In this document: in pieces, positions 55,456 to 58,496 of the stretch
Layout of the letters: every line of letters starts with the position of its first letter
How positions within the stretch are numbered: the stretch's first letter is position 1
DNA from: Mucilaginibacter sp. cycad4
Lineage (GTDB): Bacteria > Bacteroidota > Bacteroidia > Sphingobacteriales > Sphingobacteriaceae
Direction of reading: 5' to 3'
Assembly: GCF_034263275.1 (NCBI RefSeq)
Contig: NZ_CP139559.1
Span: 6,634,001 to 6,698,000 of the forward strand
Length of the DNA stretch: 64,000 nucleotides
Position numbers and translations under genes: made by a program
Notes under the pieces: model-generated
What the model saw: only the letters and a program-made list of their open reading frames with translations
The model's database searches: none
What the model was told of the DNA's origin: nothing

Positions 55456-56478
55456 ATGGCTAACATAGATAAAAATAGCGCTGATAAATTGAAGGCATTA
55501 CAGCTTACGTTAGATAAGCTGGAAAAATCATACGGTAAAGGTACCATCATGAAATTGGGCGAATCCGTAATTGAACAAACTGAAGTTATATCAACCGGCT
55601 CATTAGGGCTTGATATTGCTTTGGGAGTTAACGGTTTGCCTAAAGGAAGGATCATTGAAATCTACGGGCCTGAATCGTCAGGTAAAACGACTTTGGCTAT
55701 CCATGCTATTGCCGAATCGCAAAAGAACGGTGGTATCGCCGCCTTTATTGATGCGGAGCATGCTTTCGACCGTTTTTATGCCAAGAAATTAGGCGTAGAT
55801 GTTGAGAACCTCCTGATCTCTCAACCGGATAACGGTGAACAGGCGCTGGAGATTGCCGATAACCTGATCCGCTCGGGCGCTATTGATATTTTGGTTATTG
55901 ACTCTGTTGCGGCGTTGGTGCCCAAAGCCGAGATTGAAGGTGAAATGGGCGATTCAAAAATGGGCCTGCATGCACGTTTAATGTCACAGGCATTACGTAA
56001 GCTAACCGGTACCATTAGTAAAACAGGATGTTGCTGTATCTTTATTAATCAGCTGCGCGATAAGATCGGCGTTATGTTTGGTAACCCTGAAACTACAACG
56101 GGTGGTAATGCATTGAAATTTTATGCTTCAGTGCGTTTGGATGTTCGCCGGATCTCGCAAATTAAAGATACCGACGAGGTTTCAGGTAACCGTGTAAAAG
56201 TTAAGATCGTCAAAAATAAAGTTGCTCCGCCATTCCGCATAGCTGAGTTTGATATCATGTTTGGCGAAGGTATTTCAAAAGCAGGCGAGATCATTGACCT
56301 GGGTGTTGAATACAACATTATTAAAAAAGCAGGCTCATGGTTTAGCTATGGCGAAACCCGTTTGGGCCAGGGTCGCGATGCTGTTAAACAACTGATCCTT
56401 GATAATCCTGAGCTACAGGAAGAATTGGAAAATAAGATCAAAGAAACGGTAACCGGCGAAAGCATGGAAGAAGTTTAA
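55456..56478 (+). CDS. recA: RecA recombinase
   Basis: RecA (340 residues) drives homologous pairing and strand exchange and triggers SOS responses where these exist. The Walker A motif is [10 protein letters not shown] near residues 72-80. The Walker B region is [20 protein letters not shown]. Other blocks are [16 protein letters not shown], the L2-like stretch [20 protein letters not shown], and the [14 protein letters not shown] signature. The tail is acidic as expected. Length is standard. It is preceded by nth and ends at a terminator, after which a RAYT-REP unit lies. Confidence 0.99.
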
Positions 56479-56528
56479 TTGGGATTATACTGATGATTGT
56501 GTGATTTCACTGATAAACTAAACTAATA

Positions 56529-56562
56529 CAACAAAAGCCTTTCATGCGGAAGGCTTTTGTTG
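56529..56562 (+). terminator. Terminator after recA
   Basis: ACAAAAGCCTTT and AAGGCTTTTGT pair around CATGCGG, and a T-rich segment follows. Confidence 0.8.
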
Positions 56563-56577
56563 TAAAATATAAAGCTA

Positions 56578-56635
56578 CCGCGGGTTTAGCGCAGCGTAAC
56601 CCGTGGTGTAATATCATTTAAGCTTTCAGCTTAAA
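56578..56635. repeat. Left REP unit of the RAYT module
   Basis: A 30-base G/C-rich palindrome-bearing block (56578-56607, with GGGTTTAGCGCAGCGTAACCC) is followed by TTTAAGCTTTCAGCTTAAA (56617-56635). Both reappear in opposite order and strand on the right side (57218-57275). Confidence 0.9.
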
Positions 56636-56656
56636 TAAAAAAAGTAAACCTAAATC

Positions 56657-57205
56657 ATGAGCCGCAATTATAAATTCCACAATCAGGAGTTTCCCTATTT
56701 TGTAACCTTCACCGTTGTGCAATGGATAGATGTATTTACCAGAATTGAATACAAAGATATCCTTGTTGAAAGCTTGAAATATTGCGTCAAAAACAAAGGG
56801 CTCAAGTTATATGCCTGGATAATCAAGAGCAACCATGTACACTTAATTATCGGAACAACGGATAAACCAATGCAGGATATCTTAAGGGATATCAAAAGGC
56901 ATACTTCTAAAACTATCACCAAAGCCATTGCCGAAAATTTGCAGGAGAGCAGGCGCAAGTGGTTGCTTTGGTTCTTTGAACGGGAGGGAAGGAAGGATCC
57001 TGGCAACGAGCATTACAAGTTTTGGCAATCGGGTAACCATCCAATTGAGTTATTTGGCGATAAAATGATCGATCAAAAGCTTGATTATTTGCATAATAAT
57101 CCTGTTGTGGCTGGTTGGGTTGATCGGCCGGAGCATTTTCTTTATAGCAGTGCGAGGGATTATATCGGTGATAAAGGTTTGATTGATATTGAATTGATGT
57201 GTTAA
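56657..57205 (+). mobile_element. REP-associated tyrosine transposase (RAYT, IS200-like Y1)
   Basis: This 182-residue HUH-fold transposase has HVH at residues 60-62 (IKSNHVHLIIG) and the probable catalytic Tyr144 in DYLHNNPVVAGWV, the diagnostic RAYT motif. It sits between perfectly matching inverted REP sequences, the arrangement expected for a domesticated or semi-mobile RAYT that moves or processes REP DNA. It lies between recA (its terminator ends at 56562) and cfa, both on the same strand. The coding sequence is intact and of normal length. Host maintenance rather than high mobility is the usual interpretation. Confidence 0.93.
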
Positions 57206-57217
57206 TATATAGCATGA

Positions 57218-57305
57218 TTTAAGCTGGAAGCTTAAATCATGCTATACCACGGGTTACGCTGCGCTAAACCCGCGGCAGTAGTGTAACCCGCGCTAAACCC
57301 GCGGC
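57218..57305. repeat. Right REP units of the RAYT module
   Basis: TTTAAGCTGGAAGCTTAAA (57218-57236) and the 30-base block at 57246-57275 are the mirror of the left REP; the 30-base block is an exact reverse complement of 56578-56607. A second, shorter REP copy (GTGTAACCCGCGCTAAACCCGCGG-like) follows at 57281-57305. Confidence 0.9.
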
Positions 57306-57380
57306 AGTACTATGTTAGCAATTGTTCCCGTTTTTCTACAAAAAGAATATCTTTATCACCGCATAAACCGGAAAAAAACT

Positions 57381-58496
57381 ATGGGGTCATCAAAAGAGAT
57401 TGTTACAAATATGTTTGCTGCGGGAGGTATTACCATGAACGGGAATAACCCCTGGGATGTACAGGTACACAACCCTAAATTGTATGATCGCTTGCTGGCC
57501 GGTGGTTCGCTGGGTTTTGGGGAAGCCTATATGGAAGGCTGGTGGGATTGTGAAGCGCTTGACGAATTCTTTTTTCGCGTCCAGTATCACCGGGTTGATA
57601 AAATGATTCCGCGTGACTTAAATACACTTAAATATTTTCTTAAAGCAAAGTTTAGCAATCAGCAAACCAAATCAAAGGCTAAAGAGGTTGCTCATAAGCA
57701 TTATGATATTGGTAACGACCTGTTTGAGCTGATGCTTGATAAACGAATGATGTACTCCTGTGCCTATTGGGAAACGGCACAAACATTGGATGAAGCTCAG
57801 GAAGCTAAGCTTGATCTGATTTGTCGTAAGTTAAAATTGGAACCCGGCATGAGCTTACTTGATATAGGTTGTGGATGGGGCGGGCTTCTTCGATATGCGG
57901 CCGAAAAGTATGGCGTAAAAGGAGTTGGCGTAACCCTTTCAGAAGAGCAGGCTATTATTGCAGAGGAAACTAATAAAGGGTTACCTGTAGAGATTAGGGT
58001 GCAGGATTATCGAGATGTGCATGAAAAGTTTGACAGGATAGTTTCTGTCGGGATGCTTGAACATGTTGGCTATCGTAATTATCGTATCTTTATGGAAACA
58101 GTGAACGAAAATTTAGCGGATGATGGCATTTGTCTGCTTCATACCATAGGCGGTAATTACTCAACTAAAGTTACCGACCCCTGGATTGCGAAATACATAT
58201 TTCCGAATGGGATGTTGCCATCTGCTGCTCAATTATCAACCGCATGGCAGGGCTTATTTATTTTGGAGGATTGGCATAACTTCGGTGTATATTACGACCG
58301 AACCTGTATGGAGTGGCGAAAAAACTTTGAGCAAAGCTGGCCGCAGCTTAGTGCCAGATATGGAGGGACGTTTTACCGCATGTGGCGCTACTATCTAAGC
58401 GCCAGCGCTGCATCTTTCCGTTCAAGGAAAAATCATTTATGGCATATTGTTTTAACCAAACCAAAGCATCTGGGATTATACAAGTCAATAAGATAA
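57381..58496 (+). CDS. cfa: Cyclopropane-fatty-acyl-phospholipid synthase
   Basis: Cfa (371 residues) adds a methylene group from SAM to unsaturated fatty acids in membrane phospholipids, usually for acid and stress tolerance. It has the N-terminal domain with DRLLAGGSLGFGEAYMEGWW, the SAM-binding motif LLDIGCGWGGLLRYAAEKYG, the EKFDRIVSVGMLEHVG stretch, and the bicarbonate-site tyrosine region near the middle (MMYSCAYWETAQTLDEAQEA). The C-terminal helices carry MEWRKNFEQSW. A 23-codon longer frame at 57312 starts inside or next to the REP unit, so I use the ATG at 57381. Confidence 0.95.
   Translation: MGSSKEIVTNMFAAGGITMNGNNPWDVQVHNPKLYDRLLAGGSLGFGEAYMEGWWDCEALDEFFFRVQYHRVDKMIPRDLNTLKYFLKAKFSNQQTKSKAKEVAHKHYDIGNDLFELMLDKRMMYSCAYWETAQTLDEAQEAKLDLICRKLKLEPGMSLLDIGCGWGGLLRYAAEKYGVKGVGVTLSEEQAIIAEETNKGLPVEIRVQDYRDVHEKFDRIVSVGMLEHVGYRNYRIFMETVNENLADDGICLLHTIGGNYSTKVTDPWIAKYIFPNGMLPSAAQLSTAWQGLFILEDWHNFGVYYDRTCMEWRKNFEQSWPQLSARYGGTFYRMWRYYLSASAASFRSRKNHLWHIVLTKPKHLGLYKSIR

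Follow-up and report, generated by a model that had tools for sequence, protein, structure and literature searches.

A RAYT/REPIN system of a known kind, probably a long-standing and vertically inherited resident between recA and cfa in Mucilaginibacter: REP anatomy, decay and loss

Between recA and cfa in Mucilaginibacter sp. cycad4 lies a transposase gene enclosed by inverted repeats, and the question is whether it is a transposon that has just jumped there, a gene taken over by the host, a fossil, or a resident REP-associated tyrosine transposase (RAYT) accompanied by its REP sequences. The window that we analyzed is a stretch of 64,000 nucleotides from this genome (G000), which is a single contig of 7.11 Mb. 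In all probability the locus is a REPtron of the Bacteroidetes type, with a single-copy, vertically inherited RAYT held in an inverted pair of composite REPs and long settled between recA and cfa. The RAYT/REPIN system found here is old, vertically inherited and of a known kind; what we add is the anatomy of its REPs and a series of gain, decay and loss.

The left neighbor is recA (an open reading frame at 55456 to 56478, plus strand), with one recA-type match per genome in 94 of the 100 genomes of the genus. A perfect 15-bp inverted repeat picked up by the repeat search between recA and the unit (56527 to 56564, plus strand) is probably the recA terminator. For the unit itself, the first-pass annotation had described a perfect 30-bp inverted pair with palindromes on its inner side and an intact HUH/Y1 transposase in between, and all three elements are there. 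Positions 56578 to 56607 are the exact reverse complement of 57246 to 57275, with mismatched bases flanking them on either side; the inner palindromes are TTTAAGCTTTCAGCTTAAA (56617 to 56635) and TTTAAGCTGGAAGCTTAAA (57218 to 57236); and the gene (56657 to 57205, plus strand) has 182 codons without a stop and matches Y1_Tnp (PF01797, 6.2e-07). Allowing up to 10% mismatch lengthens the arms to 62 nt (56575 to 56636 and 57217 to 57278), at 90% complementarity. Each arm holds a long, bulged hairpin of about 30 nt (H1) and, some 10 bases further in, a second hairpin (H2). On the left (plus strand), H1 spans 56576 to 56607 and H2 56617 to 56635, both seen in DNA folding and covariation, and H1 in the repeats as well. 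On the right (minus strand), H2 (57218 to 57236, from the inverted repeat and DNA folding) lies inside a palindrome at 57208 to 57246, and H1 covers 57246 to 57277 (from the repeats and DNA folding). As single-stranded DNA each arm folds far more strongly than its shuffles (z of -5.1 and -7.5), and the H1 core pattern occurs twice in the window versus 0.02 times expected from shuffles.

To the right of the unit, an extra REP had also been annotated; REP sequence is indeed present at 57290 to 57309 (minus strand, a direct repeat), but it amounts to the outer 20 bp, that is, the outer half of one H1, and not to a full REP. Similar stubs occur at some other REPs (G000 positions 382163, 4850714 and 6457453, and the RAYT arms L052R, L070R and L073R), laid out as an outer H1 half that ends near the loop, about 5 to 20 bases outside a complete REP and in the same orientation. 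Stubs accompany 5 of 61 REPs in G000, weakly above the 2.2 that the farther flanks would predict; among the arms they were counted at 9 of 57, a tally without a control. The right neighbor is a cyclopropane-fatty-acid synthase-like gene, cfa (57381 to 58496, plus strand; PF02353, 4.3e-89), whose start we place at the ATG at 57381, in a start region common to the sequences of relatives; the mechanical ORF call begins at 57312.

The protein passes the NCBI model for REP-associated tyrosine transposases (NF047646, 93.8 bits against a cut-off of 80), which, together with REP copies throughout the genome, supports the annotation of a RAYT with cognate REPs. It carries the HUH pair (H60-V-H62, in NHVH), W123-Q and one catalytic tyrosine in a Y-x3-NP context (Y144, in YLHNNP), aligned with those of 4ER8. 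Degraded catalytic residues, raised in the annotation as a possible objection, were not seen: the residues are intact, and all of the 30 RAYTs compared, from the genus and from more distant loci, have H60, H62, W123, Y144, N148 and P149 in common. The structure 4ER8, the E. coli TnpAREP-REP hairpin complex (PDB 4ER8), is the top sequence-profile match (1.3e-05) and also the top fold match, the latter serving as support only, given the low quality of the AlphaFold model (mean pLDDT 58.8). Subclass 2.6 of TnpAY1 is defined in Table 1 of PMC6006769 by NH[LIV]H, WQ, YIH[QN]NP and a length of about 179 aa; with NHVH, WQ, YLHNNP and 182 aa, our protein fits this subclass, or RAYT group 5 of the Bacteroidetes, by motifs and length, with L for I at one place of YIH[QN]NP, where many aligned relatives have I. 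Its nearest named relatives belong to Mucilaginibacter. An IS200/IS605 identity was considered and rejected: the score against the IS200 transposase model NF033573 lies below the cut-off (24.1 bits versus 55), and the genome holds no near-identical copies of the gene, the close copy being single and the next relative 61% identical. A separate Y1 transposase of the same genome (L006, genome coordinates 6973047 to 6973391), its best Y1_Tnp match at 93.8 bits, looks like a true IS200-type enzyme and not a RAYT.

The structure of the REPs was examined in the arms of RAYT relatives, picked by their loop sequence, so that stems and H2 played no part in picking; loop conservation in the alignment is by construction, because the loop was the search anchor. 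Of the 57 arms extracted, 53 were aligned; one duplicate was removed, and L057R, L059L and L061L were left out because they resembled a REP by half or not at all. The loop search gave no arm for L053L, L072L, L073L, L074L, L074R and both sides of L046, L047 and L048, and L042 to L044 were skipped as coming from the same genomes as L050, L051 and L054. Over the 53 arms, the two-helix structure is paired in 95.9% of cells, versus only 27 to 42% for versions slid along the alignment, and the double-change cells number 107 against 29.9 ± 4.8 in shuffles, none of 500 of which reached as high. Compensated changes are found in both helices, for instance G-C or A-U at columns 10 and 31 (43 and 10 sequences) and U-A or G-C at columns 47 and 63 (32 and 18 sequences). 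Both hairpins are thus supported by covariation. Directly outside H1, a CT is conserved, with T in all arm sequences and C in at least 90%. Since C|T is where the TnpAREPs studied in PMC8266576 cut, the CT at the foot of H1 is a plausible candidate cut site.

How many such REPs does the genome hold? The RAYT is flanked by REPs that recur elsewhere, and the genome-wide count proposed in the first-pass annotation, for which a lack of further copies had been named as the adverse outcome, gave at least 69 in G000 at E ≤ 0.01 with a covariance model of the arms, these two arms included. The count is a minimum, because scoring covered 150 of the 3277 candidates from the first look. The 5 to 9 copies returned by an exact-pattern search were set aside as too low, since stems that vary through compensated changes make such a count misleading. 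Neighboring REPs less than 700 bp apart form 25 pairs, 22 of which are ordered as in the RAYT unit, with the H2 sides inward (p 5.8e-11 versus equal odds for the four possible orders); one of the others is ++, two are -- and none faces outward. Because these 22 have the inward-facing layout of the gene unit, we take them to be REPINs. Two of the 22 enclose a RAYT, namely, the recA-cfa unit and the 61% identical paralogue at 4.85 Mb. By their stems, the REPs belong to family A (CTGCCGCGGG, that of the recA-cfa RAYT) at 32 places and to family B (CTGGTCGAAG, that of the paralogue) at 27, as read in 61 of the 69 REPs, 2 of them ambiguous and 8 more being without sequence. The canonical GT[AG]G was not found directly 5' of the hairpin; GTGG occurs in family A only within the 3' side of the H1 stem, and family B is without it. 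The paralogue (L134, genome coordinates 4849843 to 4850784) is a second REPtron with its own family B REPs and an extra REP behind it. Three further RAYTs of G000 (L007, L008 and L011) are each bordered on both sides by different double hairpins, judged by eye, and since the hairpins differ, each of the five RAYTs examined has its own repeat family.

Across the genus, relatives of the RAYT protein were found in 88 of 100 genomes. With the same covariance model and at most 50 candidates scored per genome, the median number of REPs was 25 where a close RAYT is present (29 genomes), 2 where there are distant ones only (59) and 0.5 where there are none (12), although single genomes of the last group still had up to 12 REPs; the cut-off for a close RAYT (1e-75) was set after the data had been seen. 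The rank correlation between REP count and RAYT was 0.66, and 0.58 after accounting for genome size, with kinship ignored; the counts are not independent of phylogeny, and some of the genomes counted had also contributed arms to the model.

The intact frame and near-perfect arms would agree with a recent, autonomous IS-like transposon, in which the RAYT and its 62-nt arms had newly jumped between recA and cfa, and an active or recently active unit inserted at this site is what the first-pass annotation had proposed. The comparison of relatives leaves this proposal unsupported. A RAYT lies between recA and cfa in six species, open in four (G000, G074, G031 and G068) and broken in two, by stops in G071 and by a start out of frame in G017; G027 retains a broken remnant after recA. 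In the RAYT tree the sequences from this locus group together as a single clade, and so do their hosts in the recA tree, there with a support of just 61. The position common to the six species refutes recency at the site. Nucleotide identity to the relatives is merely 79 to 84%, and the lack of close copies and the score against the IS200 model given above also speak against a recent transposon, which we regard as very improbable. The annotation had also suggested looking in relatives for an empty site. Two gene-free sites do exist, in G013 and G091, where the gap between recA and cfa is short and contains a single H1 hairpin and the outer CAG of the other arm; however, both genomes are nested beside G031 in the recA+cfa tree (support 99 and 100), so their state is a loss and not a pre-insertion site. 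A precise excision made by the transposase is not claimed for them, because a simple deletion at the 9-bp repeats found in both arms, AACCCGTGG/AACCCGCGG, also agrees with the junction. Judged by these trees, the unit appears to have arrived at recA-cfa before the split of the six sampled species and is not a fresh insertion. Since then, it has been inherited, eroded or deleted there, with REP scars left behind by decay or loss.

Other loci give a second view of the same units. Sorted by their flanks, 30 related units form 14 groups, with eight genomes at one locus (locus B), six at recA, then four and two and ten singles; this number of groups is an upper bound, because contig ends and local rearrangement inflate it. 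Locus B shows a decay series: the unit is present in G006, G004 and others, G080 has a REPIN there, and G044, G020 and G067 have a single right-hand REP, with no REP in the stretch read of G071, G068, G056 and G089. Recombination between REP copies in direct orientation, of which G021 has an extra one, could account for the right-hand REP that survives in G044 and G067. The single REP of G067 (L232), a genome without a RAYT match, sits exactly at locus B and is very well conserved (86.6 bits). In G089 (L063), a genome with 12 protein matches, a second, partial RAYT follows a RAYT and is itself followed by another REP. The unit was relocated in G044 (L062, L233), since its RAYT occupies a site gene-free in G006 (L242) and G021 (L243), and locus B of G044 is without the gene. 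The new site is bordered by a 17-bp direct repeat, TTGCTAAATAAG(C/T)TTAA, a single case inside a REP cluster that hints at a possible target duplication. Both the scatter of 30 relatives over 14 flank groups and the G044 case are points in favor of the IS-like transposon considered above. RAYT and host distances are correlated (Mantel r 0.54, 0 of 2000 permutations as high), which argues for movement within lineages and not for frequent transfer between them. A wider proposal, which we put forward tentatively and hold to be possible more than likely, is that Bacteroidetes group 5 RAYT units end in composite two-hairpin REPs and change places within lineages as complete units, taking the gene along. 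If this were true, the relocation would depart from the published view of RAYTs as vertically inherited genes that do not copy themselves (as stated in PMC8049555, citing Bertels 2017); these REPtrons would then be slow transposons and their REPINs gene-less derivatives, as in G080, with a REPIN where eight relatives hold the gene unit.

The open RAYTs of the recA locus have pairwise dN/dS values of 0.046 to 0.097 at dS of 1.1 to 2.2, approximate because dS is near saturation, and the gene there is under purifying selection. A dN/dS of about 0.05 over so long a divergence, in a single-copy gene inherited vertically at recA-cfa, is also what would be expected if the RAYT were purely a host gene, co-opted for a cellular job (for example, on single-stranded hairpins at stalled forks), with the hairpins as regulatory elements or remnants. 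However, any such job is dispensable, because G071 and G017 have a broken gene and G013 and G091 have lost it by deletion; the neighborhood of recA is not general, since 8 of the 30 related units occupy a different locus and 16 are found at further ones; and REPs are more numerous where close RAYTs are present. A pure host gene seems unlikely to us for these reasons. In the short run the number of REPs can be maintained in the absence of the recA-cfa RAYT, since G013 and G091, which lack it, have retained 38 and 37.

The age of the REPs themselves was followed at orthologous sites. When the flanks of 16 G000 REPIN sites were searched in seven relatives chosen for closeness, most carried the element in several of them, and among the matches listed, read by eye, most of the sites checked appear common to relatives at about 85 to 90% identity. 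Four sites were aligned: one is empty in G013 and G091 and has a decayed trace in G068, at another the empty genomes are G074 and G068, and the remaining ones differ in length. These four gave presence/absence differences and no clean recent REPIN insertion, and no movement of REPs between close strains was caught. Such shared and old sites would suit a fossil, in which gene and REPs are inactive and the REPs are kept after genes as transcription-stop or mRNA-stabilizing hairpins; so would the covarying stems and the gene contexts of the REP sites in G000, of which 19 are tandem, 13 convergent and just 2 divergent (34 of 35 fetched sites, classified with a crude ORF finder). However, four species keep dN/dS at 0.05 to 0.10 and all catalytic residues, unexpected of a fossil, and the order of the REPIN pairs is far from random, which a terminator role does not predict. 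We therefore consider a fossil improbable and return to a resident REPtron.

By analogy with better-studied systems, the protein of this REPtron would bind H1, perhaps with H2, as a single-stranded hairpin, and H2 may aid recognition. The cut beside H1, probably at the conserved CT, would be made by Tyr144 with the help of a metal bound to the two HUH histidines. The strands would then be rejoined, so that over long times gene-less inverted pairs (REPINs) may occasionally be copied or moved in trans.

Several features of the unit have counterparts elsewhere. PMC6006769 describes "atypical secondary structures" on the flanks of subclass 2.6 genes, which recur elsewhere in the genome and show no consensus GT[AG]G; our unit resembles them in NH[LIV]H, WQ, Y(I/L)HNNP, about 180 aa, the Bacteroidetes host and the atypical flanking structures. 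The text of that paper on subclass 2.6 does not give the REP anatomy and genomic count reported here, and beyond it we resolve the two-hairpin composite, show REPINs and follow loss at orthologous sites. With E. coli TnpAREP and its REP/BIME, as described in PMC8266576 and in 4ER8, the unit shares the HUH/Y1 fold, REPs on both sides, inverted pairs, the bulged long hairpin and a CT adjoining it. It differs from that system in having no GTAG guide and a second hairpin, H2, per REP, and the similarity is remote (the profile match at 1.3e-05). In Pseudomonas fluorescens, too, as described for its REPINs and RAYTs in PMC3116915, the unit is an inverted REP doublet, each REP class goes with one distinctive RAYT, copies are single and loss leaves an asymmetric footprint. 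However, our genome holds tens and not hundreds of copies with another REP sequence and structure, and the losses that we report are evolutionary and not sequenced excision events. TIRtrons, as presented in PMC3733652, also place a tyrosine transposase inside long inverted repeats, some of them double-palindromic, in moderately abundant families; most TIRs there are described as unrelated to REPs, whereas each arm here is REP-like and forms REPINs.

A search of open-licence PMC found no biochemistry of subclass 2.6 and no prior description of Mucilaginibacter REPs or of the structure of subclass 2.6 REPs, of which the supplements of PMC6006769 may list some. RAYT/REPIN systems are a main example of transposases tamed by bacteria, and the work that we found on them is nearly all on Proteobacteria. 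Here, a single genus offers natural experiments, with intact, broken, deleted and relocated units that have left readable scars. Single strands carrying H1 and H2 offer a simple, testable substrate for a subclass whose REPs were noted merely as "atypical".
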